Of a stretch of 64,000 nt of DNA, positions 27,996 through 64,000 are shown one piece after another. The stretch is from Branchiostoma lanceolatum (lineage: Eukaryota; Chordata; Leptocardii; Amphioxiformes; Branchiostomatidae). A program made the translations under genes and the position numbers. The notes beneath the pieces are model-generated. The model was not told the origin of the DNA and did no database searches. It saw only the letters and a program-made list of their open reading frames with translations. The stretch's first letter is position 1, and every line of letters starts with the position of its first letter. The stretch covers positions 6,325,383-6,389,382 of the forward strand of contig NC_089732.1 in assembly GCF_035083965.1 (NCBI RefSeq), written 5' to 3'.

Positions 27996-30000
27996 CTCAC
28001 AACTTTCACGACTGCCTCCTGTCCGGAACGTTACGAATTCCCTTCTGGTGTCTGTCTGTGAACTGGTTCAGTCCACCGTCGCCTACGTGTTGTCTGTCCT
28101 GTCTTCCTCGGATCCACCCAACCGCGACAGCTAAAGAGGACAACAACAGATAATAGAGGTTATCAGAAGCACGTGATTGGCGTACAGAACTAAGAATGAT
28201 CGATGGTCTTTTTTAAAGACTTGTAATTAAGAAGAAGACTTTGCGAAGAAGTCATTAGTTCTCATTTTCTACCTAAACGTGTTTAAACGAAATATCACCA
28301 ATGAAAATTAATTTTTACATTTTGTAACAAGAAAAAAAGTGGAGAAACCACACTATAAGTTTATGTACATGACACAAGCGTGTTTACACAAGACAAGACT
28401 GAGTTGTCGCATGACTGTCATGTGATAACGCCCGAGGCGGGAAGATGCACCCTACCGTTAGAGTAATACCTTATGACAAGCAGCCTCTCGCCTGACAACT
28501 TCCCTGGCTGACTGGAGCTTCTCTGGCTAGCTGGTACGATTTTAGCACCGTGCTTGGAGATTAGCCTCTCACCATAAGACTTCTGACTTTTATCTTGTCT
28601 CTGCCAGGTGTTGAACAAAAACGTGTCAGGCATCTGCAGACAACATTTCTCAGGATAACACATTGCATACAATGCGTGTACTGGACAATTACATACGGGT
28701 ATAAGTGCATAAGACAAGTAGTAACTATTAAGACAAGTACAAAGTGCCGATGGAGGTGGAAAGGGGTGCGCTCAAAGGCGTAATTACGTAAGACAATTGC
28801 TAAGACAAGTACAAAGCGCCGATGCAGGTCGAAAAGGGCGCCATCAAACTTCTTCACGACTGTCGCAAAGACAAGAAATTGCACGTCATATTCAGATTTT
28901 AACCCGTGGCGTATCTATAGTTATCATGGGGGTACATCTTGGATTTTTCTACCTCCTTTAATACGTACACAGACAACTTACATGGAGAACAAAGCGTTTT
29001 GTATTGTTGGAGAAATCTGCAACGTAACTTTTCATGTCAGGTCAATCATTTAACCCAGTTTCAATGCCTTTCTTTCAACCAGTAATGATTATTATTGCTA
29101 TTATAGGCTTACTCAACTCATTGTGCTTTTGAGCAAAATTGTTTACATAAATACCACAATTAGTAGTTGGTATTTTTAGCATTCCCCCCAGTCACAAGGT
29201 AGTCACGAGGTGGTCTGTCTTGCTTGAATGACTACACATTGTGTTTTTCTTGCCCAAATACACTTAGACACAAAGCCCACTGTAGGGGCACAGACATTAC
29301 AATATACTACTTGAAGGACAAATATACAAAACCCCATCGTACATTTTTTTGCCTCAAACTGACTTTGAGGTTGGCTTTTGTCGAACCTTGACTATCGTAG
29401 AGGTCTTGTCATGTTTGTTACGGGGCAGTTTCCGAGCACTTTTGTATAGCTTTTATTCCATGTGACGTTACCTGGATTCAAACCCAGGTAAGAACAGATT
29501 CTTCGGTATGTGTGACAGGTCGTTCAGTGTGAAATAACCAGCTGCTACCGCGCCGCGTGCCTGCGAAGCTGGTGTGTATTACTGTTGCACTGGATGGCTA
29601 GTCTCTACCAGACTAACTACGCCGGCTATAGGGAGGATATTTGCAAGGGTTTCATTTGCAGGCTCCGTCCGACACGGGCGAAATGTGATCTTCACCGTGG
29701 ACTGACTCTACTGGCTAATCAATCCCCTTTCTGCCGAATTCTATGATCCATACGCCCGTAGGAGGGTCTGATGGAGGCTAGGTTATACCGGCGACACGTA
29801 TACAGAACACCTAGGTAAATCCTGCCCAGTGATTGGTCCACTGGCGGGTGACAGGAAGGCGTGTTCCGTGATGACCCCTCGTCGGACCGTCCGGTCACTC
29901 TGAGCACCTGTTCTCCGCAGGTGGTCGCATCTGTCTTGAGACAGGATTTAAGACAAGACGCTTTACTAAATATCATCGTATGCATATATCTAGAATTACA
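27996..30000. promoter_or_regulatory. Shared intergenic region of the divergent tyrosinase pair
   Basis: About 2 kb between two head-to-head genes, so it should hold both promoters. The sequence shows CACGTG at 28170-28175, about 175 bases upstream of the ATG of tyrosinase 1. It also shows GTCATGTG at 28417-28424, which matches the core of the vertebrate M-box bound by MITF. Another CATGTG lies at 29459-29464. A roughly 73-bp direct repeat (AGACAAGTACAAAG units) lies at 28732-28870. No exon is convincing. Regulatory use is inference. Confidence 0.45.
28732..28870. repeat. Two diverged copies of a 73-bp unit
   Basis: Each begins AGACAAGTACAAAG, followed by GCCGATG and AGGTGGAAAGG or AGGTCGAAAAGG. 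They lie in the space between the two tyrosinases. Confidence 0.7.
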
Positions 30001-33000
30001 ATGTACACTTTAGTGGTGACTTTGGTGGCCATTTTCCTGTCTTCCCCCGTGTCGGGGCAGTTCCCGCGGGCCTGTATGACTGTAGACGGGATCCTGTCCA
30101 AAGAGTGCTGTCCCGAGTTGATCTCTCCGGACGGCTTGACCCTCGGCGTGTGCGGACAGACCGCCAGCCGGGGCTCCTGTCAGGACCTGGCCGTCCCCGA
30201 CATCCCCCACAACCCGGAATATCCCTTCACCAACGTGGACGACCGAGAACGATGGCCCAACAAGTTCTTCAACCGGACCTGTGTGTGCGAGGGCAACTTC
30301 TGGGGCTACAACTGCGGCGAGTGTCGGTACGGCTGGACGGGAGAGAGCTGTGATCAGCCGGCCTCGCCCGTCTTACGGAAGAACATTAAGAACTGTACGG
30401 CGGAGGAAAGGCGTCGGTTCGTGGACGCCTTGGACCAGGCCAAGAGAACCGTCCATCCCGACTACATCATCTGTAAGGAACACTGGCTCGGTTTGCTGGG
30501 ACCAAACGGCACGGAGCCGCAAGTGGTGAGGAACATGTCCTGTCTTATAATCATCTGCTGTCCAACCTCCTCTGTACATTTCTATCCATGAGTTAAAAGA
30601 GAGGGAGAGAGAGAATGATTGGTATACGTAGCTTTGACTGTAATTACAAGTTATTATCAATCAATTGCAGATTATACAGATTATTAATGAGCATGTACAT
30701 ATTTATATCACACTGAATGTTATATATCTTAACAAGGAAATTATCCGCATACCAAATGCAAATTAACTTTCTTTCTTTCAGTCATTCCGCTTTTCATTAT
30801 AGCAAAAGAAATAGGCGTACTACGTGCAACAAAAATTGCAAGAAACCACATTTACTAGTAGTCTACAAGACATTCAAAACAATTGTTCGATGATCCAAAT
30901 GTAAAGCATTGGCCCCGATTACTTTACCTCAAGAGTAGACATTCTTAGCTACATTTTACTATAACATATCTATATCCTTAAACAGATTCGATTGCAAAGA
31001 ATTGGGTAGAAATAAAAAAAAAGTACTAGTAGTCTACAAGACATTCAAAACAGTTTTTGGATGATCCAAATGTAAAGCATTGGCCCCGATTACTTTACCT
31101 CCAGAGTAGACATTCTTAGCTACATCTCACTATAATGTATCTATATCCTTAAACAGACTCGACTGCAAAGAATTGGGTAGAAATAAAGAAAGAAATATTC
31201 TATAAACTAGCGGAGCCATAACAGACACAAACGCCGGGGGCGGGGTATGAATGTCTTGTGATCTCAATTAAGGAAGATAATTACTGTCACGAGTGTGACA
31301 CACAGCTACAGACAGCGCCTTGGGAACAAAACATGGGAACAGATCCTTTACAACGATTGTTTAAGGAAGCGTGAAAAATGCGTTGACATTTCGTACATCT
31401 TGCTAAACAGGACTTTTTCGTCGACATTCTTGAGCGAACCACATCTAGTGCTTGTTAAAATCTTGATACAATTTGTTTCTTTTTTTCTCCTTTTCTCACC
31501 CCTACAATACGTGACTTGGCCTCTATAGCAGACAATGTCCATCTGCCGCATCTATAGATATATGGCGGGATGTAGCTAAACTTTTGTTATCGACCTTTAT
31601 TTAACCTTGAAAGTTTACAATCTTTGGTTAATCCTTTTAACATATCATCGGAAAATATAATAAAACAATTCTTTACAAAAAACGCTATATTGGATATTCC
31701 ATAGTCATATTCGGTATATGAAAATAGGTCGACGACATAATATCATTCAAACTGGTAGCCTCACAGCAAATTTAAAGCTCATGGTTTCAATTAGCTGGTA
31801 ACTGGGATACCCCGGTTCAATCCTGGGAAGGGCATCTCGGTTGGGGCTGCACCATTATTTCGGAGGGGACGTAAAATGGAGGTCCGTGTCCGCGGAGGTG
31901 CCTCGAGCACGTTAAATGGCATAGCTAGCAACCCCGCCTGTAAGAAATGTCATATATCCTACAACTGAATCAGCAAGAGAACTTGCTGTCCTTTGTGCCA
32001 CTAGGCACTACAAGGGTCTGAACGAACGATACGAATATGTATTGTATGGTATTGTTGTTATCCTTACACTCTTACGTATTTGCAGGAGAATGTGACTATC
32101 TATAACCTGTTTGTATGGATGCACTACTACGCCGTGAGGGACACACTACTGGGCCCAAACCAGCCGTGGAGGGAGATAGACTTCGCACATGAAGGTATCG
32201 CCTACATTCAGACTTTCCTCTTTTCAGATTCCTTCCCATCTTTGCTATTTAATCCCTGCATGTAGTTCACACTCGTGACAGCAATTATCTTCCTTGTGAT
32301 TAAGATCGCATGGAATGCATGGCCCACCCACAAGTGTTTGTGTCTTCCGAGTTTGGAAAGTCTCTATCTTTACTTCTGAAATTTCGAAAAAGAAATACTG
32401 TAATTCTTGTTTCTTTCACTGTACCTTTATGTTCACTGTTTTCATGGGCGCCTCTGTGCCGTGAACATAACATCATAGTGAAGATATATATATATATATA
32501 TATATAAAGTGAATTACAGTACCACGGTAGTTCGTAGGGGGCGTTGCTTCTCTTTTTCACCCCTGTGTTTCTGTGCGACAGGTCCGGCCTACAACACCTG
32601 GCACCGGATGCACCTGTTGTGGCTGGAACGGGAGATGCAGAAGATGTTGGGAGATGAGACCTTCGCGCTGCACTACTGGGACTGGGCGGTAGGAGGTGCG
32701 TGTATATATGTACATGTATATTCTCATGTCTGACAGAAAAATACTGGGCTTGACAGAAAATACAAAGGTTAGAGACAACTGTGTTCAAATCCTGATATGC
32801 CCCTTTGATGTTGATAACGTTGTGCCCTGCTAATTGGGAAATGCACTTTGCACGAATGACCTCGCTTCACTCAGGTGAAAAATGACTACTTAGGAACGTC
32901 ACTCGGATAAGATGTTCAATGAGGAGAGTCACACCTTGATCATGTAAAAGGACCCACCACGCTTATCTAAAAGAGTAGGGGTCCTTTCCGGTGTGAGTGG

Positions 33001-35144
33001 ATCAAATAAATCTATCCGGATATGCAGCTTGTACTGTTCAGTACAAACCTGTGTGTTAGGTCATGATGTGGTTTACCGGGTATGCAATACAAAAAAAATA
33101 CAAAAAAAAAAACTCCTTATCAGGTCTTGCTATGTTGAAGAGACCATCTAACGACGATTTTTTTTCTGATTTCCCAGGAACGGAGTGTGACGTGTGCACA
33201 GACGACATGATGGGAGGCCGCCACCCCCTGAACCCGACTGCCCTGAGTCCCGGCTCGCCCTTCTCCCGCTGGCAGTCCGTCTGTATGAGTCTGGACGACT
33301 ACAACCGGCTGGTGACGCTGTGTAACGGGACGGACGAGGGGCCGATCTTCCGCAACCCCGGCGGGAACGTGGACCGTCCCGATGTCAGGATCCTGCCCAG
33401 GGGAAGAGATGTCGGTATGTCTCATCTAATCTAAGTGTAGTTGACATACCTATTTTCAAGCAGATGTAGGGTGCGGTTGAGCGTCTTACACGTGCTTTGC
33501 GACTCTCGGAGGCCTTTTGCTTGTAGCCTTCTGTAAAGTGAGGGGTATAAAGAGGACTGCAAGCGAAAGACGCTTCCCAAGATTCGCAACGTTGTTACCT
33601 CTACAACGGTTTTCGCCTGTTCGAATCTCGTCATATGTCGTACAGACATAGACTCTACCAGGCTCCGCGGATGGTTGGAAAATAGTATACTAGTAAATTG
33701 GCCAAGTAGAGTGAATAGTATGCTAAGGGAGTCGGCTGCGGAGAGAGGGTCCAATATGCCATCTAGAGGTCGCAAACTGTAACTTCTACAACGGACCAAC
33801 TTCTCTGGCATGTTATCCGTCTATTTGGCCAATTTCTACGATTTTTCAAGCGACCCGTGGAGCCTGGTAGTGGCTAGTACGTATACAGACCTTAGATGTA
33901 TAGCGTGACGTGTCTTCTCTGGCGTTTCAGGACGCTGTCTCGACCTCCCGCTGTACGACAACCCGAACTGGACGGAAACTGCCGAACGGAGTTTTCGGAA
34001 CACCTTGGAAGGGTTCGACCATCCCGACGGAGAATACGACCCGAGTATCCGCACCCTGCACAACCTCGCACACCTGTTTCTCAACGGCACCGCCTCCGTC
34101 GCGCATGCGTCAGCCAATGACCCCATCTTTGTCCTCCTGCATTCTTACAGGTACAGTTCATGTTCTGACAAACTGAAATGAGATAAACAACGAATCATTT
34201 TATCAATATATGGACGTAGGATCAAATACCATTGAGCCCAATATTACTAATCATGTGTAGATAGCATACCAACGGTTAAAGCTATACTTGATGTAAAGTA
34301 TGACGGTATTTAGATCTAAAAAATGATAAATGATTCTGTTCCAGTGACGCCATCTTTGACGCCTGGCTTGCTATGCAAAACACATCGTCATTGGTCAGTT
34401 ACCCGGAGGAGGGCGCCCCTATCGGCCACAATCTGAACAACACCATGGTGCCGTTCTTCCCCGTGGTCCGCAACGCTGACGTCTTCCAGTTCTCACAAGA
34501 CATCGGTTACGCTTTTGATGCACTCCCCGAAAGTAAGTTTGAAGGTAGAAATTCTTCCTTCCTTCCTTCCTTTCTTTCTATTTCTAATCATATTTCATTT
34601 CTTTCATTTCATTTCATTTCATTTCCTTCCTTCCTTCCTTCCTTCCTTCCTTCCTTCCTTCCTTCCTTCCTTCCTTCCTTCCTTCCTTCCTTCCTTCCTT
34701 CCTTCCTTCCTTCCTTCCTTCCTTCCTTCCTTCCTTCCTTCCTTCCTTCCTTCCTTCCTTCCTTCCTTCCTTCCTTCCTTCCTTCCTTCCTTCCTTCCTT
34801 CCTTCCTTCCTTCCTTCTCTATATCTAATCATCTTTGATTTCTTCCCGTTACATAAATTAACGACGGTTGTGTTATTTTAGGGGTGCCAGAAGAACCATC
34901 TCAGTTCACAAGCTTCGAAATCTTCGCGATGGGAGTGGGGGCCTTCATAGGCTGTATCGTGTCCGCCTTGGCCGCGTACGGGATTGCTGGTATGCTGTCA
35001 ACCAAGCTTCGGGGAGGACCCGGCGGCAAGGGCGTCTACCAACCACTCCTGAAAGAGGAAGACGACAGGGGACGGAGATACACGGCAGAAACTGCTGTCG
35101 TTTTTATGGATAACGAAGTGAGATGTAGCGTGGACAAGGAGTAG
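30001..35144 (+). CDS. TYR: Tyrosinase family copper oxidase 2
   Basis: Seven exons: 30001-30525, 32086-32194, 32582-32695, 33178-33414, 33931-34150, 34345-34532, 34882-35144; 1656 nt, 551 aa. An in-frame ATG at 29980 would add seven residues; 30001 is preferred because [19 protein letters not shown] starts a typical signal peptide that aligns with that of the inverted copy. The EGF-like Cys segment, CuA (H188, H210, H219) and CuB (H372, H376, H399) sites, transmembrane helix and short tail are all present. The tail has [11 protein letters not shown], like the acidic di-leucine melanosome-sorting signal (QPLL) of vertebrate tyrosinase and TYRP1. After the signal peptide, exon 1 differs from the other copy by about one residue in 165. 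Exons 3 and most of 4 are also nearly identical, but exons 5-7 are clearly diverged. AATAAA strings at 35589 and 35622 may end the transcript. Confidence 0.93.
30854..31195. repeat. Tandem duplication of about 170 bp in intron 1 of tyrosinase 2
   Basis: Two direct copies begin ACTAGTAGTCTACAAGACAT and end GAATTGGGTAGAAATAAA. They share GCATTGGCCCCGATTACTTT and differ at about ten sites, so the duplication is fairly recent. Confidence 0.9.
31790..32060 (+). mobile_element. SINE-like relic
   Basis: GGTTCAATCC at 31814-31823 resembles a tRNA-type B box. It is followed by GGGCATCTCGG, a GGGGACGTAAAATGGAGGTC stretch and a CACTAGGCACTACAAGG tail. The order fits a tRNA-derived SINE, but no clean poly-A tail or target duplication was found. 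Confidence 0.4.
32396..32521. mobile_element. MITE family C copy 2
   Basis: Same ends as the element at 4931-5145 (TACTGTAATTCTTGTTTCTT and AAAGTGAATTACAGTA) but with a shorter interior and an AT dinucleotide run. It lies just before exon 3 of tyrosinase 2. Confidence 0.8.
32800..33010. mobile_element. SINE-like relic
   Basis: Contains GTTGTGCCCTGCTAATTGGG, CTTCACTCAGGTGAAAAATG and GTAAAAGGACCCACCACGC, in the order remembered for amphioxus tRNA-derived SINEs. It is degenerate and has no coding content. It lies in intron 3 of tyrosinase 2. Confidence 0.4.
33651..33876. mobile_element. MITE family E copy 1
   Basis: Left end CTCTACCAGGCTCCGCGGATG; right end GGAGCCTGGTAGTGGCTA; the interior has AATTGGCCAAGTAGAGTGAA and its inverted partner TTTGGCCAATTTCTAC. 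A second copy lies at 40626-40814. It sits in intron 4 of tyrosinase 2. Confidence 0.8.
34555..34818. repeat. CCTT microsatellite in intron 6 of tyrosinase 2
   Basis: About 200 bases of nearly pure CCTT preceded by a TTTCA run. It lies immediately after the exon 6 donor. The long PSFL and EGRK frames through it are artefacts and extend falsely from exon 6. Confidence 0.95.
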
Positions 35145-46974: not shown

Positions 46975-48115
46975 TCAGAAGTCCTCCGGATAGTCCTGGT
47001 CCTGCTTGGCCAGCGCGACGGCAAGTTTCCGTTTCCCGGTAAAGCCGAGTCTGGCGTGCTGGCAGTACATGTTGTTCAGGACCAGTAAGTCACCCTTCTG
47101 CATCTGGAAACCCATGGAAACCTGAGAACGAGAAAAAAAACGCCATACACTAGCTCGTTGAAATTTCGATTTCTATGATGCTATCGTGAATGCAAAGAAT
47201 GTGGACTTAACGTTATGATGTTGTCAGCAAGGTTCTATTAAGCATACTCTCTGCGATGGACACATGGCTAATCTGAGCCAACTGAATTGGATTTAAAGGT
47301 CGTCTGTGGTTGAGTTGTCAAATTAATCATGATCTAGTTTGGCTGTCTGTAGAGGTAAGACTATTTATGAGTTTTTGCGAGTCTGGGAAGAAAAAGTAAA
47401 TTTTGAGTTTGAGCACATGTTTCCCAATCGGAAAATGGTGGTCCAGAACGAGGAAGAGTCCACACTAACTACACGTACTGAAGTCCACAAGGACACTATT
47501 GGAAGCCACTGCCAAGAGTTTCTCAGAGGCTGCACAAAGTGTCCTTATGGGCTTTCGTACCTACGTACCTGCCAGTGGACATCGCGGATATGCTGAATTA
47601 CTTCTGCCTCAATGTCGGTGCCGTCTCCATAGTGGGTGGTGAGGGGAAAGTCATGATCGGGGAGATCCTTGTTGAACCAGAGGGGGTGGGCCTTGAAATA
47701 TGATGCGTTATTTATGTGGACGGAGCAAAACCACAGTTTCTGCCCTGGAAAATTACATTGGAACCGTTGTTAACATATACGTACATGTTTCCTAGATTGC
47801 TGCTGAGCCAATTGTTCTACCGTGCAATGTACAGCAAAAGAAAAGGCCACAAAATGGTTCTATCGTTAACAGTCTCTTGTTTTATATCCTTCGAAATGAA
47901 AAAAATAAAAAAAGCTTTCATGAACTATTTTCCGTATTTTTCGAAACCCATCCCAAACCTTAATCCCAAAGTTTTTCTCTTCACTGCATTTCAATTTTCA
48001 GAGAGACCTTGCTTTAGGTATGGTTTAGATACCAGGACAATATAAGATAAGCCCACAACTCTAGTGACCGTCCTGACAACAGAGCCCCCCCCCCCCCCAA
48101 CACACTCACGAACGT

Positions 48116-48154
<39 letters not shown>

Positions 48155-50244
48155 TGACTTTATTGAAATATGCTAACCTCTGTACTTGAACATGGGTGGC
48201 AGTGTGATGCACCATGATAGGTTGTCATCTTCCCACCTCCAGTTTGTGTTGTTCGCTATCATATACTTCTCTACAGCCGCCCTTTCCTCGGTCTGGAACG
48301 ACTGAAGATGTATACCGTATAGATACATATGAAAAATACATGTATGTTTATCTCCTTGAAAAAAGGCTTTTTCATGGAGATACTGTTTTGCGTGCGTTTG
48401 CGTGTTTGTGTGTATGTTTGTGTCACCGGATGCTTAAAGTCAGAATAACTGTAGAACATGTTGATGGATTGTAATGATATTTAATATGTGGGTAGGTGTT
48501 GGGAGGAGAAAGGTCAAGGTCGATTTTGGGCCCCCTGGTATGTGTCACTGGAACTGCAATGGCGTATTTGTAAAAATCTTCGAAGGAGAATAACTGAAGA
48601 AAGGAACGACAGATCGTCATGTTATTTGGTACGCAGGTAAGTTAGACAGAGATGTACACACTTAAGTGCAAAGTATGCAAATTCAGTGTGTTTGCGTGTG
48701 TGTTTGCATGTGTGTATGTTTGTGTCACCGGATGCGTAAAGTCAGCGTAACTGTAGAACGTGTAGATGGATTGAAATGATATTTGGTATGTGGGTAGGTG
48801 TCGAGAGGAGAAAGGTCAAGGTCGATTTTGGGCCCCCTGGTATGTGTCACTGGAACTGCAATGGCGTATTTGTCAAAATCTTTTAAGGAGAATAACTGAA
48901 GAGAGGAGCAACAGATTTTCATGTTATTTACTATGCAGATAGCTTAGACACAGATGTATACAATGAACTGCAAATTGGACTTAATTTGCATCAGTAATGA
49001 GGAAAATATATATTTGCAGTGTTGTCCATTGCATATTGTTGCACATCTGTTAGTAGCTATTCATAGCGAAAGTGGGTCACTTCTCCTGGCCCCGACAGGT
49101 GGGGTTCAAACCATTGAGGGATATAGAATGGGGGGGGAACTGGTTTAATAAAAAAACAAAGTTTCATGGAGATTTCGGGTCCTAAGACTCTTGTTGTCTA
49201 TGGAAGAGAAGGTGTAATTCTTTTCTTGGTTTGATGTTCTTCGTTTCGGTGATCTAAAGAATCAAATGATTAGCTATTAGTTGTACCTTTTGCCATGAGA
49301 GGTATGCTCCAGGAGAATGGGAGGGCAGGTGATGCCAGTACATCACTCCGAGCTTCTCAAACTTGTCCACGACGTCCTTGTCCAGACGGGGTAGAATTTC
49401 CCGCACGTCTGCGATCACAGTCTCGCCACCAGCACCAGGAGACGGAGGGTCCAGGCAGAAAAATATGACCTGAAAACCACAACCAAATCTTTTTGTTAAG
49501 TGGCATACCTAATGTCAATTTCAGAAGACATGTGGTGAATCAATAGCAAAAAAGAATCAAAAAGAAGCCTATCATACAAAAAGCGAATGAGACGTAAAAC
49601 CAAGGACACCTACGGAGACTCGGTTTGCGTTAGCTGTTCTCTAAAGCGTTGACACTTTTCGTTCTACTAACCTTTTCAGGGAAGTGCGAGGTCTGGGCCA
49701 GCTCATTGTGGGGTTCGATACAAAACTCGGGCGGCTCGTCGCTCGCTGTGTTCACTGCCTTCGCGACGTCACTCCTGACTGCAGCTCCCCCTTCATAACC
49801 AATTAACTTCAGACCCATGTTATTGACTACACGGGAGAAATCTTCGGCAGTCTGCAGAGGCAGACCACGAAACAGTACCGCCCCATTCTTGTTCTTCTCC
49901 AGCACCTCGTGTACTACTTTCCGCACGGCGACAGCACACCCTTCAGGAGAAGCGGTCGTGTCATCCTCAGGTGTGAAGACGTACGGGTAGCCGTCCTTGG
50001 GTGGCTTGAGAAACTCGGGATAGTTGGGACTAGTCGAGCCAGGTAGCCACTTCCTGCCCCTGATCCGTGCCGGGTGGAGTTTAGCTCGGCTTGCCCAGTC
50101 AACGTGGGTCTCCACGAGGGTGACGTCGGTGCCAAAAGACGTTGATGCGTGACTATTGTGCACCTTGTGGCTGATACGAGACCACACAGTTTGCACACTG
50201 CGTGACCACCCACTTCTGTAGGCTGTCGGTAGTATGACGGCCAT
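46975..50244 (-). CDS. TauD/TfdA-type Fe(II)/2-oxoglutarate dioxygenase A
   Basis: Five exons on the minus strand: 49672-50244, 49287-49469, 48178-48301, 47569-47744, 46975-47121; 1203 nt, 400 aa. Enzymes of this family hydroxylate small molecules using iron, oxygen and 2-oxoglutarate. GAVLFRGLPLQTAEDFSRVV and IEPHNELAQ match the clavaminate-synthase-like group (Arabidopsis At3g21360 type, from memory). The iron ligands are probably H179 and E181 (HNE) with H374 (CQHARLGF), and R383 would bind 2-oxoglutarate. GGETVIADVREIL follows in exon 2. The first 35 or so residues are rich in Arg and Ser with no acid, as in a mitochondrial targeting peptide. It ends QDYPEDF. The substrate is unknown. Phases and exon sizes match the copy at 51599-53973. 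Confidence 0.9.
48083..48150. repeat. C run followed by CA microsatellite
   Basis: About 14 C bases at 48086-48099, then about 30 bases of CA from 48120, in intron 3 of dioxygenase A. Confidence 0.9.
48396..48960. repeat. Two direct copies of a 300-bp unit in intron 2 of dioxygenase A
   Basis: Both copies contain TTTGTGTCACCGGATGC, AGGTCAAGGTCGATTTTGGG and GTGTCACTGGAACTGCAATG. They are about 90 percent alike by eye and separated by a TG-rich linker. Intron 2 of dioxygenase B lacks them, so they arrived after that gene duplication or were lost from B. Confidence 0.85.
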
Positions 50245-50932
50245 GGTTGTAGATTAGAACTTCTGAAGTCAAAGACCGGATGTTGTCGAACTTACCACTT
50301 TACTGCGGAAGTTTGACAGAAGCGCACTTTGTAGAATAAAGAAGCTAGGCTGGGGCCACACAGCAACAACCTGCCAGTGGATCTATCATAAAACAGAAGC
50401 AGTTTGGACGTAAATAACCCCAACAAGTTGAGTGGGTTTAATTAAGGTCACTGCTTACGTCGTCAGTAGTACAGCCTACAGGGTGCGCAGTAAGTGACCC
50501 ATCGTCTAGATCTGATGGTTACACGCGGACCAGGCGTCATAGCCAAAGTTGAGGGCGACCTCATTAGCATAATATGTAAAGATTTGTGTGACATTTTTTT
50601 GTCAATATGTGTAAATGTATCAATCTATGTTAGAACATTTGTCGTACGGCGTAACAGCCCCCAGGCAGGCATGTTACATCTTGGTAAAGACAAGGACAAA
50701 TTTGGCCACACGGTGCCCCTAAGGTTGGTCCTTGTCATCAAGGTCGGTATCAGGGCAGGGCAAACCAGGCAACATAACACAATGATGACACAAATGTCCG
50801 CAGGACACAAATGTTCAACATGGTTGTATTGACAATCCAACATATAAGTGCGGCTACCAAAGTTAAGAAGCCGGCCATTGTCTCCTCTGTAACAAACTAC
50901 GCACCAGTAAAAGAAGCACAATATTCTCATCC

Positions 50933-51598: not shown

Positions 51599-53973
51599 TC
51601 AGTAATCCTCCGGATAGTCCTGGTGCTGCTTGGCCAGCGCGACGGCAAGCTTCCGTTTCCCGGTAAAGCCGAGTCTGGCGTGCTGGCAGTACATGTTGTT
51701 CAGGACCAGTAAGTCACCCTTCTGCATCTGGAAACCCATGGAGACCTGTCAACAGGAAAATGTCATACTCCCATTAATATTTCCATTTCTTTGACGCTAT
51801 CGTGTCTATACAGAATGCAGACCCTAAACGTTATGGTGATGTCCACAATGTTCTGTTCAACATGCGCTCTTCAAAACATTCATGGCTAATAGAAACCAAC
51901 TAAGGTCGTCTCAGAAGTTGAGCTATCAAATTATTCCTGACATAATCCTGATCTTTCTGGCTGTTTGCGCAGATGAGATTCTTCTTATTCTATTCTCTCA
52001 ATACCCCATGTATCGCCCCCTGTGGCCGCAAGTGCATTTATCCCCCTGGGGAATGAACATGCAATAAAGATTATTATATTGTTCATGAATTTATTGATGG
52101 GTCTTGGAAGGAAGAGAGTTTGAAGCTATATCTATGTCAGCGGGAAAATGCCGATCCAGCACAAGGAAACAATCCTGCGTACTGAAGCCCATAATGACAC
52201 TATCTGAAAAAACGTGGCTGAGAAATTGTTGTTTTGCAGAGGCTGCGGAAAAGAGATTGCAGAGCCTGTGACGAGGGCTTCGCAAAGGCTGCAAGAATGT
52301 CCTTATGGGCTCTGGTACATGTACCTACGTACCTGCCAGAGAACATCGCGGATATGCTGGAGAACGTCCGCCTCAATGTCGGTGCCGTCTCCATAGTAGG
52401 TGGTGAAAGGAAAGTGATGATCGGGAAGGTCCTTGTCGAACCAGAGGGGATGGGCCTTGAAATGTGATGCGTGATTTACAGGTCCACAAAACCACAGTTT
52501 CTGACCTGGAAAATAGATCACAATGGCACCACGGTTAGATGTGGAATTTATAAACTGAGTGTGCGTCGTGTGAACGATACAAAATTGTCCTATCATGAAT
52601 AATTGATAGATATGTCCTTCCAAAGTGTATTGTCGATTTTTCCATCTCTGTTAAACTCCATCCCAAACATCATCCCCGAAGTCTTTTTATATTGCTGGAT
52701 TTCTATATATATATTTATGTTTATACATGTACGTTGAGTGTATCCTAACCTCTGTATTTAAACATGGAGGGCAGTGTGATCCACCATGATATGTTGCCAT
52801 CTTCCCACCTCCAGCTGGTATCATTCGCCATCATATGCTTCTCTACAGCAGCTCTGTCCTCGGTCAGGAACGCCTGAAGATGTATATGGCGTTTAGATAC
52901 CTGTCCAGAATATTCACCTTGAATATTCACCTTGAAGATCAGCCAGTAGGTACCCTTAAGAGTAATGAGGCTGTGTTATGGAAAAATTCTGTCACTTTTT
53001 GATTTGATGATCATTGTGCCGGCGATTTAATAAAATCAAATAATAAACAGATTGTACCTTTTGCCATGAGTGGTATGCTCCAGGAGTATGGGAGGGCAGG
53101 TGATGCCAGTACATCACTCCGAGCTTCTCGAACTTGTCCACGACGTCCTTGTCCAGACGGGGCAGGATTTCCCGCACGTCTGCGATCACAGTCTCGCCAC
53201 CAGCACCAGGAGACGGAGGGTCCAGACAGAAAAATATGACCTGAAAATCGTGATGTGAATTTCACAAATCAAACTTTTGGTTGATACTTGACATAGGTTG
53301 CATCCATTTTAGAACACATGTAGTGAATGGGTAGGAAGCTAGTTAAGCTGTACATTAAAGTCTCCTATATGGTTATGCTTTCTTTCTACGTTTCACTAAC
53401 CTTTTCAGGGAAGTGTGAAGTGTATACCAGCTCATTGTGGAGTTCGATACAAAACTCGGGTGGCTCGTCGCTCGCTGTGTTCACATCCTTTGCGATCTCA
53501 CTCCTGACTGCACCTCCCCCTTCATAACGCATTAATTTCAGTCCCGTGTTATTGACTACACGGGAGAAATCTTCGGCAGTCTGCAGGGGCAGACCACGAA
53601 ACAGCACCGCCCCACTCTTCTTATTCTCCAGCATCTCGTGTACTACTTTCCGCACGGCGGCAGCACACCCTTCAGGAGAGGCGGTCGTGTCACCCTCGGG
53701 TGTGAAGACATACGGGTAGCCGTCCTTGGGTGGCTTGAGAAACTCGGGATAGTTGGGACTAGCCGAGCCAGGTAGCCACTTCCTTCCCCTGATCCGTGCC
53801 GGGTGGAGTTTAGCTCGGCTTGCCCAGTCAACGTGGGTCTCCACGAGGGTGACTTCGGTGCCAAATGACGTTGATGCGTGACTATTGTGCACCTTGTGGC
53901 TGATACGAGACCACTCAGTTTTCACATTGCGTGACCGCCCACACCTGTAGGCTGTCACTAGTATGGCGGCCAT
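51599..53973 (-). CDS. TauD/TfdA-type Fe(II)/2-oxoglutarate dioxygenase B
   Basis: Five exons on the minus strand: 53401-53973, 53058-53240, 52750-52873, 52333-52505, 51599-51745; 1200 nt, 399 aa. Exon sizes equal those of dioxygenase A except exon 4, which is one codon shorter. The HNE iron motif (IELHNELVYTSHF), GGETVIADV in exon 2, and CQHARLGFTGKRKL in exon 5 are kept, so it should be active. The N terminus (MAAILVTAYRCGRSRNVKTE) is again basic and probably targets mitochondria. Exon 1 is very similar to A, but the region after the RGLP motif varies (MRYEGGGAVRSEIAKDV). The protein ends QDYPEDY. The neighbours are copies of itself, and the substrate is not evident. Confidence 0.9.
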
Positions 53974-55038
53974 GGTTGGATCCCGTGACGCAGGTGAGGC
54001 AAAGTTGAAAGACCTCTCAAGTTTCTGAGTTCAAAGGCCAGAGCTCGAGGTTGTCGAACTTACCGTGACTTTACTGCGGACGCCTGACAGAAGCGCACTT
54101 TGTAGACTAATACCATCGCAAGTTAGGCGGGCCACTTAGCAACAACCTACCAGTGGATCTATTGTAAAACAAAAACATTTTACACGCAAAAAATCCCAAT
54201 GAGTTGAGTTTGGTTAAATTAAGCTAGGTTACTGCTTACGCTGTCAGCAGTACAGTGTGTGCAGTAAGTGACGTATCATCTAGATCTCATGGCGCTTCCG
54301 GGTACTCACTGTTCAGGGGTCATTACATTGCCAAAATTAAAGCATAATGTAAAGATTTATGTGACATTTTGTGTCAATATGTGTAAATTTATCAATTTCT
54401 GTTTTAACAGCGTAACAGCCCCCAGGCAGGCATGTTAGATTTTAGTAAAGATAGGACAAATCTGACACCAAAATGCCATGAAGGCAGTTACCCTAATATA
54501 TCATCACGGTCGGTATCAGTGCAGAACAAACAAGACAAAATAACACAATGATGACACAAATGTCCGCAGGACACAAATGTTCAACATGATTGTATTGACA
54601 ATCTAACATGTAAGCGCGACTACCAAACTTAGGAAACATTGTCTCCTCTGTTACAATCTACCCACCAGTGAAAGAAGTGCACTATTCTCATCCTTGTCCA
54701 ATTCCATACGTCAACACCATTGTAAATATAGTGTATCATATTTCTACTACGGAGTCTAACAGGTGTGAAGTGACTTCACACCTGTCAAGTATTACTTTTG
54801 ATATATTTTATGCCTTCATCAGTTAGGCAGGTAGATTTTGCTATACCGACTGATTGTGCGTCAGTTGACCTGATTCCTTTTGAAATACTATTAGAAATTT
54901 AAACGATTATAAACTCGGTATCACTCTCGATATATTTCATGCATCTACAGTTGTACCGGTAGATTTTGCGATGCCTATTAATTGTGTCAGTTGACTTGAT
55001 TCCAGTTGAAATACAGACTATTGGAAACGATTGGAAAC
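53974..55038. other. Upstream flank of dioxygenase B and duplicated spacer
   Basis: Bases 53974-54290 are the 5' flank of B. The complement of this flank recurs upstream of the plus-strand copy C (55550-55835), so both promoters come from one sequence. 54350-54690 matches the spacer above A. A small hairpin (ACAGGTGTGAAGTGACTTCACACCTGT) lies at about 54760. No new gene is seen. Confidence 0.55.
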
Positions 55039-55835: not shown

Positions 55836-58800
55836 ATGGCCGCCATACTAGTGACAGCCTACAGGTGTGGGCGGTCACGCAGTGTGCAAACTGTGTGGTC
55901 TCGTATCAGCCACAAGGTGCACAATAGTCACGCATCAACGTCATTTGGCACCGAAGTCAACCTCGTGGAGACCCACGTTGACTGGGCAAGCCGAGCTAAA
56001 CTCCACCCGGCACGGATCAGGGGAAGGAAGTGGCTACCTGGCTCGGCTAGTCCCAACTATCCCGAGTTTCTCAAGCCACCCACACTATGCGAAAGGGGCT
56101 GATTTCCGGAAAAATTCGGAGTTGATATATTCCAAGACATGCTTGATATTTGGAATGTGTCCGGACAAGATGTCTGATATTTACCATATCCTGGAATATC
56201 CTGAGTCCGGACATGTTTTGTTGCGAATCCGGACGAATAAGACTTTCCTATATTTCAAGATACGCGCCATTGACGTATCTTGCTTCCGAATGCATAACAC
56301 GCTTTATATTCTGAACATATCCAAGGTAATTATATTCCAGGAATAAATTTTGGACATATTAGGAGTTGACACGTAGCATGATATGCCTCATTTCTGGACC
56401 ATTTTCGGACGACATTCGATATTTACTACATCCGCAAATATCATGATTCAGAAATTGTTCCGAAGCATATCCGGACGGATAAAAGCTTCCAGTTTTTTCC
56501 GAATACGTGCCATTGGCGTTTCTTGTTCCGTACTCATGTTCAATTCACGACACAGATACAAGAGCTAGAGAGCTAGAGATATACCAAGAATCAGTGACAG
56601 TGTTCGGACATATTTGGAGTAACATGACATGCTACATATTCCGACCGTTTCCGGGCATGGTTTTGGGTGTTCATTTCTGTTGCGTGTCCGGACAAATAAG
56701 ACGTCTTTTTTTTCAAGATACGCGTCATTGGCGATTCTTGCTGTGATACGGTTCATATATTGTATGTAGGTTTCATTGTAATTGATCAAGGATTATGTCG
56801 CCCTTGAGATGATATATTTTGGAAATAAATTTAGACAAATTAGGAGTTGACACGATATCATATGAAGCACATACTCCATCGAAATACTATAGATCTATAC
56901 TAGTGATAGCGGTGCATTATAAGAAAGTTACATATCCGGAAATATCATGCTCAAAATTCACTCAAAATACTCCATAGACGCGTTGCAGTATGGGAAAGCT
57001 CCATATACGGACAGTATCATGCTCCAAATTTACTCATGATACTCCATGGAAGCGTTGCAGCATGGGAAAGTCCCATTTTCGGACTAAAACAGGAGGCACT
57101 CATGGTCAGAATATGCGATGTGCTGTACTATTGTTCGCCGTACAGTGGCGCTGCAACTTTATCATGGTGGCAGCACATTCTAGGCTATTTGATGATACTG
57201 TCACCAAGGAGTATCAGGAAGCCAAATTCAACCGATAATAAAATGTATACGGGTGGTGCAGTTTCTGAAAGTCAGGTCATTCGGAACCAGATTTTTTTTA
57301 GAACGGATCGGAGCTGAGGCACATTATATATGTGTGTTGGAACATAATATCTGTGTTTTATTTTTGTGCGGATGTAAACAGTGAAGTGTGCGACAGTTTG
57401 ACCTGATGAGACCGTACCACGCGTGTTTGGAGCAGTCAAAGCCCGACAAACAACGGTCTATACCGCGCCACCACGATGTTTGCGAATGTGTGCAACATGC
57501 AAGATTTGAACTGGTAAGTACACAATGGATTTGTTTACAAAAAATAAGCTTTCTCGCATGTAACCTGACCCCGTTAGCTCAGCTGCATCTTTCATGTCTT
57601 TGATACCCAAAGGCGCTGACGGGAGATTCCCCCGAAACCTTACTACCATCTAACAAATGACATGGATCATCATTATTAATCTACCACGTGTCCCATTTCA
57701 ACGAATGATGTTTAGGGTTGTATGTTTGGGAGTCTTCAACACACATAAAATGCATTTAGTAGTTTTCCCCTTGCTGGCGGGGCGGGCATACAAGCTGAAG
57801 CAAAAGCCGGGCTGGTACTACTGGGCGGGGCCGGGAAACTCCCCAGGAGTGCTGAGCTCTATTTACCGCGGGATGACTGCTTTGGGCCGCCGAATGAACT
57901 GCTGGTCAATGGCCCGATACCAGTCTGACCAGCACAAGCCAAGACATTTTACATGATTATGTTCAATGCTATGATTGTATATTAAGGGTAAGACTAGCCT
58001 GTCAATAGCTTCTGTCTTTTAGTTATGCAAAACATGTACAAGCCTAACATCTGCGTGGAGGGTAGGGTAGCTGACACTACAGTGGATACTTAGCAGGCAA
58101 ATTGAGCAAGGAGGTTGATTTGAGGCTGTAGTGTAGTGTTCCCGGGAAAGAGCGTTTCGCGATCTTCCACCAGACATTTGGAAGTGGCTACTGAGTCAGG
58201 ACGATCCTGGTCAGCAGTAGAAAAATCTGCACTGCTGACAGGATCATCCTGTCAGCTGTAACAGATAGAATAGACGACATAATGTGTCCTGATCTTATAC
58301 AAAGGTTTCTCAGTAGCTAGGCAGTAAGCAAGCTATATTTAGGACTAAGACACGTGACCAGGCCGTATTCGGAAGCTCATCTGAATAGATTAGTGTTGAC
58401 CAATAGCGAGTGAGAACAGCTAGCACCTTAGCATAAGCCCGCCGATTTGAACTCAGAAGCTATCCTGTGACTAAGGTAAGTGATCACACGTAGATTAGCT
58501 CTCTGTATTTTGTTCGTAATAAATACTAGATGATTGTAGAATATCCTACATTTCCATCATTACACTAGTACTCAACCTCCGTAATCGTAACGCTCTAGAT
58601 CGATTACTGTGCATCTTGTACTGTAGGCCTTTATAGTAGACTTGGCTTGTATAGTACTGCATATACCACGGGATAAATAACGATCCGAACAAGAGTATTA
58701 ATCAAACCGGCTTGGCGTTCTTATCTCTATAGTAGCGTAACTTAAGATGTAAAGGTTAAGTCCACATCCTATACCCTAGACCAGAAAAGTTGCATTGATT

Positions 58801-61800
58801 CCTACACCGCTTGTTCGGACAACTGTGGTTTCTGCTTGCTTGTAATTGTGAATTTTGTGTGCTTCTTTTTGCGCTGTCGGTTCCCGTGTACTACGCGTGC
58901 GGCTTGTTTTCGGCCCGTTTCTTTGCGTAGCTAGTTAACGTTTCCCGACTGTTTGTGTGCCGTACGAGTGTTGTTGCTTTTCCTGTTCTACCAAATTCTT
59001 TGTCCTGCTGTTTTGGCTACAGTTTTCTGCATATTTTCCGTTTTCCAGCTGTGTTACTAGTGGCGTGGGTTTCGCGTCCGTTTTTTCACACTGCATAATT
59101 GATTGGACCTTGCCGACATCGCAGTCCGTCTCTAGAGTCCCGCTGTGCGCCTTTCGGGCCATTGTTTTGCCAAGAAGACCGCTCTCCCGGACGCCTTGAC
59201 TTGCAAATGGATATACCGTTGTTGTCAGTTTTCTGTGTCCTACTCCATAAATTATTCTTTCACTATCGTTTGCTCAAAATCTCGTCTGTGTTTTTAGACC
59301 TATTCTGTTTTGGCTCCCCGTTTTGTAGTACCCATTTCTGTTTGGCTTTTTTTATTTTTGTACCATCATGGCGGCCGCCAAAACTAATGCCCCGGAGATT
59401 GATTTCGGTCCTTCTTCTACGGCCCCATTCCTGCTTCGTCACCGGCGATGGCTACCCACCCCACGTCTTACTCCGAAGAGCTCCTGGCTCCCCGGTTTCT
59501 CTGCGTCTATCTAAGGCGGATGTACAGCCGCACACAGGACCCGTTCCACTACCGCAGCGACACCCAGGCTTTGCGGCAAAAGCGCAGCGAGACCCCGCAG
59601 CAATTGGAACTGAGAGTGCGCCAGGCGGTCGCTCTAGCCTTAACCTCCTTGCTCTAGCCTACCCCGGAGCCGACCAGCGCACGCGCGACGACTACGGCGT
59701 GCAGGTTTTCCTGGACAATTTAGCCATAGATGACCTTAACCTCGCAATGGATAACCTTAGTGGTAACCTCCATTAACACTAAAATTATTTCCTTCCTTCC
59801 ACGAATTCAACCACCTGCACCAACATCTGAGGGCGCAGAGCAAGCTGCTAGAGGAGGACGGAAGGCTGAGGCGGTCAAGAGAAAGAAAATGATGGTATGT
59901 GTATTAATCTATTAAAATTAACAGATTGAAGGGATGGGTTAGGCGATTGTTCAAGTGGCTTTGTGCATGGCATCCACATGTTAGGGTATCATGAAGTTCA
60001 AGAAAACCTGGTATGCAACTGACACTAAAGTAGAACTATCTGACTAGTTTCTTTTTTATAAAACCAAATTCCAAAAGAAAGCTGTAATATTTATCAGGCA
60101 TTTATGCATATTTTGCGTGTTTTCGAATTTTCTATCCAAGATCTAACATTCTATCTAAATTACAAGTGATCATTGGAAACAACGTTTATGAAAACTATTA
60201 GTCATGAAAAATGCATTTCCTACCAAGACTGGCTACATTTTGCCGGCTATATTTAGAATGGTAAAGTAATATGTATCTTGTTTTTTTAATAACGCGGCGG
60301 TTTGTGTTAAAAATCCCCCTATGATGATATTGGTTTGTGTCCTTCAAAATCGTTTATTGCAGTGTAGCCCTGCCCAGGTGCCCGCCATGCTTAATAACAA
60401 GATTTTTTCTGTACCCACTCAGCTGTTCAAGTCCCGAGTTCGGGTGGCAGGGGACGTCTTGGACAGAGAAGAATACGACTACCTGAAGTCATCAGGACAG
60501 GTTTACATGTCCGATGAAGTCAGCGATGAGGATGACAAGTCATCGGTGTGGGTCCAGCCACCCGCCTGGCGGGCGGACAAGTTAACGGACATAACGCGAA
60601 GGTGCCAGCCGGTCCTAGACCAGAATAGGAGAGACAGGCGCCTGCCCTTCTCCAACAAAGAGAGAAAGCAAGGGGAGGAGTTTACAGACAGATGTCCACC
60701 ATCCAGCGGGCTGCACAGCCACACCTCATGACTGTGGCCTCCCAGGAAGAGGAAGGCGCGGAGGGAGAGGAACGCGTAGAGGGAGAAGAACGCACAGAGG
60801 GAGAGGAAGACACGGAGGAAGAGGAAGACAGCGACTGAAGCTAGGAGTTGTGATGATGACTGATGACTGGTTTATACAACTTATAAAACAAACCACATGG
60901 CAGCCCTAGGGTTGGATTGGTACTTGGTAGGCTTGTTGACAAAAGGCTAGCTTTTTTTTACATACATTATATAAGAAGCACATACAGTGGCATACTTCAT
61001 CATTAAAACGTCACATTCCACTATTTACTATCACTGCTTAGTAAGTTGACCCTATAGTACGTAGATATGACTTTTTGTATATCTCACAGTGTTGGCTTTA
61101 AAAGTTTGTTGAAGTCGGTTTTTACTATCGTAGTTTAGCAAGTTGACCCGTAGTACGTAGATAAGCCTTTTTTGTATATCTCACAGTGTTGGCTTTAAAT
61201 GTTTGTTGTAGTCGGTTACTCGAGCGAGTCTTTCACGACACAGTGGGAACCAGTCCCTGAAGGTCGGGGATCTCAGTCGAGAGAGTGCAAAGTTTCTGCA
61301 TAGTTCCTCACGTCTTTGTGATAGTGGTGTTAGTGAGAGTTCTCCAATACAACTTGCATTTGATGATACTTCTGTTTTGCATTCGTGTATTGATTTGCCT
61401 AAATCTTTGGTGTGGTACTTCTGTTATTCTTAGTTCGTGCAGTATATTCGTCTATGTGTAAAGAGTTAGGAATTCAAAACATATTATACTGTATTAGGAT
61501 CATTTTCTCTCCCAAATAGTCTGAAAATGTAACGCCTAATAGAGTTTCTGAAAGGAGAAGTGTTACGGTCCGATTCTCGGTTCCGAATATCCTAGTTATA
61601 TGTAAACTTTCCGGAGCGTAACAGCCCGAACGCGCGGTCAGAAGTTAGGTCATTTTCTGAACGCATTTCGTCTTAAATGAGTCCGAAACTGGAAGTCCGG
61701 ATATTATGAAGAGCACTGTGGTCCCGTTCTTGACTACGGAAATAATCCGAAAACGTGAGGAAGTTGAGTTGTTTTTTTGTCCGGATATATCCGAAAACGT

Positions 61801-64000
61801 TACCAATTCGGACGTATACGTACCTAAAAATATCCGGACATCACCATCTTTCGCTTTCGGGCGTTACTATGAATCCGGATATGAGGAGTAGTGTTACGGT
61901 CCGATTCTTGGTCCCGAATATCCTTAGTATATGCAATTTCCCGGTGTGTAACAGCTCCGAACGCGGTCAGAAAATATGTCATATTCGGAACGAGTTTTGT
62001 CCCAAATGACTCAAAAAATGGCCAATTACTGGAAATCCGGATATGAGAAATAGTATTATGTTCCCATTTTGGATTCCGAATATTTTCAGCATTTGCTATC
62101 TTTCCGGAGGTTTATTCCTCCGAACTGTGTCCGAAATTATGACATATTCAGAACGTGTTTTGTCTTAAATGAGTCCGAAAATGTCCCATTACTGGAAATC
62201 CGGATATGAGAAATAGTATTATGTTCCCATTCTGGACTTGAATATTTTCAGCATTTGCTATCTTTCCGGAGGGTTATTCCTCCGAACTGGGTCCGAAATT
62301 ATGACATATTCGGAACGTGTTTTGTCTTAAATGAGTCCGAAAATGTCCCATTACTGGAAATCCGGATATGAGAAATAGTATTATGTTCCCATTCTGGACT
62401 TGAATATTTTCAGCATTTGCTATCTTTCCGGAGGGTTATTCCTCCGAACTGGGTCCGAAATTATGACATATTCGGAACGTGTTTTGTCTTAAATGAGTCC
62501 GAAAATGTCCCATTACTGGAAATCCGGATATGAGAAATAGTAAAATGTTCCCATTCTGGACTTGAATATTATCCAAACACGTAGGGGCGTATCGTCCGGA
62601 TATTGCCCGGATATGTCCGAAAACGTTCCCAGTCCGGACGTATACAAACTTTGAAATGTCCGGAAATAACCCCCTTTCGCATAGTGCCAGGCATGGCTAC
62701 CCGTACGTCTTCACACCCGAGGATGACACAACAGCCTCTCCTGAAGGGTGTGCTGTCGCCGTGCGGAAAGTAGTACGCGAGGTGCTGGAGAAGAACAAGA
62801 ATGGGGCGGTACTGTTTCGTGGTCTGCCCCTGCAGACTGCCGAAGATTTCTCCCGTGTAGTCAATAACATGGGGCTGAAGTTAATGCGTTATGAAGGGGG
62901 GGATGGAGTCAGGACTGAGATTGCGAAAGCAGTGTACACAGCGAGCGACGAGCCGCCCGAGTTTTGTATCGAACCCCACAATGAGCTGTCCTATTCTTCG
63001 CACTTCCCTGAGAAGGTAAGTAGAACGAAATGTATAAACTCTCCAGAGAACAGCTAATATAAACCAAGTCTTCGAACGTGTCCTTGTTTTAATGGTTTTA
63101 CGTCTCATTAGCTTTTTTTGTATTATAGGCTACCTTTTAAGTCTTGTTTGGTATTCATTCACAACATGTCTTCGGAAACGGACATTAGGTATGCCGCATT
63201 GAACAAAATAGATTACTTTGCGGATTTTCAGGTAATATTTTTCTGCCTGGACCCTCCGTCTCCTGGTGCTGGTGGTGAGACTGTGATCGCAGACGTGCGG
63301 GAAATCCTGCCTCGTCTGGACAAGGACGTCGTGGACACGTTTGAGAAGCTCGGAGTGATGTACTGGCATCACCTGCCCACCCATTCTCCTGGAGCATACC
63401 TCTCATGGCAAAAGGTACAACCTTTTTATTATTTGATTTCATTAAATCACTTGCACTAAACATCAAATCAACAAGAGAATCACATTTTCCCTTCAGTATG
63501 TTTGACCTTTCTGTATTTCTACGATATACATCTTCAGGCGTTCCTGACGGAGGACAGGGCTGCTGTAGATAAGCATATGATAGAGAATGATACCAGCTGG
63601 AGGTGGGAAGATGGCAACATATCATGGTGGATCACACTGCCCTCCATGTTTAGATACAGAGGTTAGGATACATTCAATATATAAAAGTGTGGGCGGAGAG
63701 GTCTGTTGTTCGTGATGTAAAAATCTTGTGACGTTTGATTCTGCTGTACATCACATGAGACTCAGTTTGTAACAGCCATCCGAGAAACGTAGGCAATGCA
63801 TCCTAACATCCGGCGTCATCTATTTTCCAGGACAGAAACTGTGGTTTTGCTGCGTCCATGGAAATAACGCATCATTCTTAAAGGCCCACCCCCTGTGGTT
63901 CGACAAGGATCTCCCCAACCACCACTTTCCCTTCACCACCTACTACGGAGACGGCACCGACATTGAGGCAGAAGTTCTCCAGCATATCCGCGATGTTCAC
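55836..64000 (+). CDS. TauD/TfdA-type dioxygenase C, exon 1 split by a transposon and 3' end outside window
   Basis: A plus-strand copy of the A/B genes: exon 1 in two parts, 55836-56082 and 62687-63015, then exons 63232-63414, 63538-63661 and 63831 to beyond 64000. The left part runs from MAAILVTAYRCG to NYPEFLKPP. A 6.6 kb CACTA element follows, and then the frame resumes at GYPYVFTPEDD. If the element and one CCA are left out, the codons read KPPRHGYP, where A has KPPKDGYP, so the frame is kept. The HNE motif (IEPHNELSYSSHF), GGETVIADV and all visible splice sites are intact. The allele in this sequence probably makes no full enzyme, because the frame stops a few codons into the element (LCERG), but the otherwise clean state points to a recent insertion. 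Confidence 0.85.
57388..57510 (+). other. Possible exon inside the CACTA element
   Basis: A short frame (MRQFDLMRPYHACLEQSKPD start) reaches a good donor, GAACTG/GTAAGT, near 57514. A second frame at 57657-57956 has KLKQKPGWYYWAGPGNSPGV. I recognise neither. They may be remnants of an element gene or chance frames. Confidence 0.25.
58190..58262. repeat. Small inverted repeat inside the CACTA element
   Basis: GACGATCCTGGTCAGCAGT, a short spacer, ACTGCTGACAGGATCATCC and a further CTGTCAGC form overlapping inverted copies. No function is evident. Confidence 0.6.
59500..59750 (+). other. Possible gag-like fossil fragment (Ty3-type LTR kin)
   Basis: Short stretches such as YPGADQRTRDDYGVQVFL recall the capsid-region consensus of Ty3-type gag proteins. 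It is a broken fragment of a few hundred bases inside the CACTA element. No long terminal repeats or other parts are seen nearby. The resemblance is weak. Confidence 0.25.
59730..60731 (+). CDS. Accessory reading frame of the CACTA element
   Basis: A frame ending at donor ATG/GTATGT (59894) can join in phase 0 to an exon from 60363 (acceptor TTATTGCAG). The joined product has a Lys/Arg-rich stretch (RGGRKAEAVKRKKMM), then VLDREEYDYLKSSGQVYMSD, EVSDEDDKSSVW and PPAWRADKLTDITRRC. The acidic patch followed by WR and a basic helix recalls small uncharacterised proteins carried by DNA transposons of marine animals; this is from memory. It is followed by a Glu-rich segment. It is not a transposase. 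The upstream start is not resolved. Confidence 0.4.
62039..62545. repeat. 162-bp subterminal tandem repeats of the CACTA element
   Basis: CGGATATGAGAAATAGTA recurs at about 62039, 62201, 62362 and 62524, a spacing of 161-162 bases. Each unit has TCCGGAGG, TCCGAACT and GTCCGAAA. More diverged units precede them from about 61690. Such repeats are the usual binding sites for CACTA-encoded proteins. Confidence 0.85.

Follow-up and report, generated by a model that had tools for sequence, protein, structure and literature searches.

Maize En/Spm transposons are bounded by CACTA ends, are flanked by a 3-bp duplication of the target site and carry repeated subterminal motifs, which in Spm are bound by the protein TNPA. 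Here, we describe an element sharing these three features in a stretch of 64,000 nucleotides of the lancelet Branchiostoma lanceolatum (NCBI RefSeq assembly GCF_035083965.1, contig NC_089732.1, positions 6,325,383 to 6,389,382 of the forward strand; this whole stretch is hereafter called the window and numbered from its first letter). The element interrupts a TauD/TfdA-like dioxygenase gene within its first coding exon. Unlike maize En/Spm, it has an animal host, its subterminal motif is TCCGRA and no transposase was found in it.

Fungal elements having CAC..GTG termini and 3-bp duplications, together with a weak protein similarity, were called consistent with EnSpm (PMC12730594). In zebrafish, the EnSpm-N families (PMC9341512) are likewise apparently non-autonomous and show EnSpm-kind ends and a 3-bp duplication, a likeness to the lancelet element at the level of structure. 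The lancelet element appears to carry an inner gene, whereas coding sequence could not be detected in most of the zebrafish families treated in that source. Another CACTA-related DNA transposon of an animal is SmTRC1 of Schistosoma, which likewise has inverted ends. It differs, however, in that it starts with CCC, has a 54-bp inverted repeat, is flanked in 7 of 14 copies by direct repeats of 2 bp and encodes a Transposase_21 domain (PMC1636069).

The available evidence makes it very probable (about 0.88) that a non-autonomous CACTA/EnSpm-type transposon was inserted by cut and paste at a CCA of the first coding exon of the dioxygenase gene, one of at least three local paralogs, and that this CCA was duplicated in the process. 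The element spans 56083..62686 (6,604 bp) and is flanked by CCA on its left (56080..56082) and on its right (62687..62689). The interval 56080..62689 given by an earlier note on this DNA thus runs exactly from the left CCA through the right one. Among duplication lengths of 2-9 bp that were tried, only 3 bp gave a match, as in CACTA/EnSpm elements, and the paralogs have the triplet in single copy; a 3-bp match by itself would occur by chance about 1 time in 64. The terminal inverted repeats (left, 56083..56110, plus strand; right, 62659..62686, minus strand) are 28 bp long and match at 26 of 28 positions. They begin with 16 perfectly matching bases, CACTATGCGAAAGGGG, and are imperfect beyond, with mismatches at positions 17 and 19, so that the perfect-looking ends of the earlier note hold for the first 16 bases but not for the whole repeat. 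Both termini start with CACTATG (56083-56089 and 62680-62686), and the element accordingly has the CACTA..TAGTG (CAC..GTG) ends of the CACTA/EnSpm group. It should be noted that the window contains 1,169 exact 16-base inverted pairs separated by 0.5-10 kb, mostly derived from large inverted duplications. An inverted repeat per se is therefore not rare there and this chance control is uninformative; because inverted repeats are so common, the case for an insertion rests on the duplication, the reading frame and the paralogs.

Of the dioxygenase paralogs, A (approximately 47500..50300) and B (approximately 52300..54300) are on the minus strand, and C, the interrupted copy, is on the plus strand. 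In copy C, the first coding exon is split into a 5' part of 247 nt (55836..56082) and a 3' part (62690..63015) ending at a GTAAGT donor. It is followed by exon 2 (63232..63414), exon 3 (63538..63661) and exon 4 (63831..64000), which is cut off by the window end. Paralogs A and B, retrieved by self-BLAST, are uninterrupted at the positions equivalent to the insertion (about 49998 and 53727, respectively), where they show a single CCACCCA and an equal total length. When the element and one CCA were left out of copy C in silico, no gap remained relative to A and B at the site, and the frame was open across the four exons for 350 codons up to the window end. With the element present, the frame starting at the ATG in 55836 reaches a stop codon at 56100-56102; copy C would then yield at most a stub of 88 residues, without the remainder of the dioxygenase. 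The splitting of the first exon of a dioxygenase gene, here its first coding exon, by a CACTA/EnSpm-type insertion, the clean CCA duplication and the open coding sequence on both sides, all proposed in the earlier note, are thus borne out.

With exon 1 of paralog A, the clavaminate synthase-like protein At3g21360 was matched at E 3e-14, and a TauD/TfdA-like protein of the PDB at E 4e-08. The Pfam TauD family was found under its cut-off of 27 bits both in the open reading frame (ORF) of copy C to the right of the element (62566-63054; E 2.6e-05, 24.7 bits) and in the exon 1 ORF of paralog B (21.2 bits). A comparison of exon 1 of paralog B with prokaryote genomes gave 55 pattern matches, of which one was confirmed as a relative (48% identity); it comes from a gammaproteobacterial metagenome-assembled genome. 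A GTAAGT upstream of the first coding exon is common to all three copies (55746 in copy C) and leaves room for an exon ahead of it.

Examination of the subterminal regions (left, 56083..56802; right, 61557..62686) showed that both are rich in TCCGRA. On the plus strand, this motif occurs 40 times in the 1,851 subterminal positions, 3 times in the 4,754-bp middle and 16 times in the 57,397 positions outside the element; the corresponding numbers for its reverse complement, TYCGGA, are 28, 5 and 17. The subterminal bounds were set after a first motif count had been seen, and no formal P is claimed for these numbers. Repeated motifs close to both ends are a further feature of CACTA/EnSpm elements and, taken with the ends and the duplication, the element fits the EnSpm type by its structure. 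By analogy with TNPA, the TCCGRA motifs may be putative binding sites for a transposition protein. The right subterminal region also contains a 162-bp tandem array of 3.8 copies (61955-62570) and an internal second copy of the right terminus (61777..61854, minus strand; 81% over 78 nt), which is degenerate and lacks the last 6 bases.

Judged by eye, the middle of the element looks as if it carried a broken, spliced gene. Its putative last exon (60363..60731, plus strand; ORF 60270-60731), the splice site of which was also placed by eye, is preceded by TTGCAG and followed by an open frame. A shift of the open frame is seen by eye at 59631-59660, where the 10-bp sequence GCTCTAGCCT is directly repeated with its copies 20 bp apart, and the inner gene looks broken at this place. 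For the inner ORF (60270-60728 or 60369-60728), no relative was found above the Pfam cut-off, in the PDB or in viral contigs, the latter giving 6 pattern matches and 0 confirmed. The best Pfam family was DUF4616 (E 0.042 and 0.025; 13-14 bits vs a cut-off of 27), and a single-sequence fold was uninformative (mean predicted local distance difference test score, pLDDT, 42.6). A possible gag-like look of the 59.4-59.8 kb region was not borne out, its pieces giving nothing in Pfam or the PDB. The pattern of the terminal inverted repeats had 0 matches in viral contigs, and Rfam gave 0 matches across the whole window. It can be imagined that the inner gene is no random passenger but a degenerate copy of a lineage-specific helper protein that would serve animal CACTA elements as the counterpart of plant TNPA and bind the TCCGRA arrays at both ends, but this is unlikely.

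Some of the results weigh against the view that an EnSpm-type transposon was inserted in copy C. Self-BLAST of the window revealed no further copy of the element. No transposase-like Pfam family was detected in the 19 ORF stretches searched (17 within the element, 1 across its right end and 1 corresponding to paralog B), nor in a six-frame translation in which X stood for stops, where the best chance match had E 0.0018 and 18.6 bits vs a cut-off of 28.4. As the transposase domain was not found, the family assignment rests on the ends, the duplication and the subterminal motifs. Moreover, three changes unique to copy C are located 0, 2 and 4 bases to the right of the duplication (62690-62695; P about 4e-4 at the background rate of copy C), so that the right junction does not exactly match the site of the paralogs. 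Triplets of C-unique changes within 6 bp are also found at two other coding places. The three junction changes may possibly be an excision footprint or repair scar, or they may be older than the insertion. As for the transposase, its lack in six frames makes this copy look non-autonomous, and its absence is as expected for a non-autonomous EnSpm member; a transposase produced elsewhere in the genome could have mobilised the element. The earlier note speaks of a possible live example of an EnSpm-type element; a live autonomous element finds no footing in these searches.

The age of the insertion was approached through the divergence of the three copies. Leaving aside four three-state sites and two gapped codons, nonsynonymous to synonymous changes number 18:16 on the C branch, 28:20 on the A branch and 23:16 on the B branch, which corresponds to crude omega-like values of 0.40, 0.50 and 0.51, respectively. 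The coding sequence of copy C has 0 stops and 0 indels. Copy C thus gives no sign of relaxed constraint, which fits an insertion young relative to the split of the paralogs. However, a random point change would create a stop in about 3.6% of cases only, so that 0 stops among the 34 C-unique changes is weak evidence. A recent insertion, in the sense of one that is young relative to the divergence of the copies, is plausible. The claim of a very recent event made in the earlier note is consistent with the lack of disabling changes and with a nonsynonymous to synonymous ratio like that of the sister copies, but the data reach no further than an event that would be young on the scale of paralog divergence.

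This raises the possibility that the insertion is a true one but older and fixed, copy C being a pseudogene in which decay of the coding sequence has yet to set in, or in which neighbouring copies have renewed that sequence by gene conversion. Such a scenario disputes the age of the event and not its kind, and overlaps with the favoured explanation. Divergence between B and C is indeed uneven: 4 of 247 sites differ to the left of the insertion (55836-56082 vs 53727-53970), whereas the numbers are 33 of 320 for the final part of exon 1 and 38 of 474 for later coding sequence. This unevenness suggests gene conversion between the inverted neighbours, which could also keep a dead copy fresh, and the low expected yield of stops noted above leaves room for an undecayed pseudogene. 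Nevertheless, the C branch has neither a nonsynonymous excess nor a coding indel, and the change-point in the B-C comparison is not pinned to the insertion (+180, range -22 to +216, permutation p 0.007). Overall, an older, fixed insertion is rather improbable, while deserving more consideration than the other alternatives. The hypothesis of a divergence break at the insertion itself, left behind by ectopic recombination or by blocked conversion, was also considered. C-unique changes are rarer to the left of the insertion (1/247) than to its right (29/797, six junction bases excluded; Fisher p 0.004). This hypothesis was rejected, the breaks not being tied to the insertion: change-points were located at -210 for A-C (p 0.04) and at -188 for A-B (p 0.03).

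If an insertion of EnSpm type is favoured, it can be asked whether the element could belong to another superfamily having CAC..GTG-like ends and 3-bp duplications, such as a Chapaev-like or an undescribed CMC lineage, rather than to EnSpm proper. The transposase that would fix the lineage was not found in Pfam, ORF or six-frame searches, and members of the wider CMC/Transib group mostly have CA..TG ends and duplications of 2-5 bp (PMC12730594). Elements that combine CACTA ends with a 3-bp duplication and subterminal motif arrays are, however, most typically EnSpm (for ends and duplication, see also PMC12730594), and assignment to another superfamily appears unlikely.

A non-autonomous relative of RAG-like or Transib elements is still less probable. 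The element has the same first seven bases as ProtoRAG, in which 5'-CACTATG-3' is identical across all aligned terminal inverted repeats (PMC8289069), and this heptamer, present at both ends, is the TR1 of lancelet ProtoRAG, the comparison being of the heptamer alone. In ProtoRAG, a conserved 9-bp TR5 block is located 27-31 bp past the heptamer (PMC8289069). ProtoRAG has 5-bp duplications and RAG1-like and RAG2-like genes (PMC8289069), whereas the duplication is 3 bp long in the present element, in which no Pfam match resembling a transposase was found. Its 5-bp flanks, ACCCA and CCAGG, are unlike and match over 3 bp only, in agreement with the spacing in the paralogs. Finally, an assembly artefact joining unrelated pieces is scarcely credible, as a mis-join would hardly place matching inverted ends exactly at the two junctions while also creating a 3-bp duplication and restoring the frame.

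Removal of the element as an intron was envisaged and rejected. The right terminus presents AG|TG behind a pyrimidine tract; the left terminus has no GT in its first 26 bases. Two donors scored best with a donor matrix. The donor at 56326 (score 4.5) leads to ten stops once joined, and that at 55865 (score 4.4) leaves the frame open but retains just 29 nt of the 5' exon part. Precise splicing-out of the element is impossible at these sites.

Elsewhere in the window, the 24300-34500 region is a large inverted duplication with two tyrosinase-like ORFs in opposite orientation, its arms being 97% identical over 548 bp (27401-27945 vs 30589-30042). The nearest PDB chains to these tyrosinase-like genes at 24-34 kb are those of 5,6-dihydroxyindole-2-carboxylic acid oxidase (E 4e-46), an enzyme known as TYRP1, and genes of this kind fit a chordate. 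A perfect TTCC microsatellite of 48.8 copies (100% match) is found at 34623-34817.

With respect to lancelets, no report of EnSpm/CACTA transposons in amphioxus was found in the open literature searched, an incomplete collection that gives no proof of absence, and the available passages of the Branchiostoma floridae EnSpm literature contain no such insertion. In the Chinese lancelet, a diploid assembly revealed 36,859 large indels (300-10,000 bp), about 65-77% of which were ascribed to transposable elements (TEs); at least 40 TE superfamilies were recognised, and the main text names neither EnSpm nor CACTA (PMC4284660). TE insertions are thus an ordinary source of variation in lancelets. In zebrafish, one survey attributes 4.69% of the genome and 382,820 copies to CMC-EnSpm. 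Chordates were therefore already known to harbour EnSpm-type elements, and the novelty implied by the earlier note does not stand. What the locus offers is a clean CACTA-type insertion that disrupts one gene of a small local family, the two paralogs with the empty site lying a few kb away and serving as internal controls. It changes no general view, but would be a useful case for measuring TE polymorphism.

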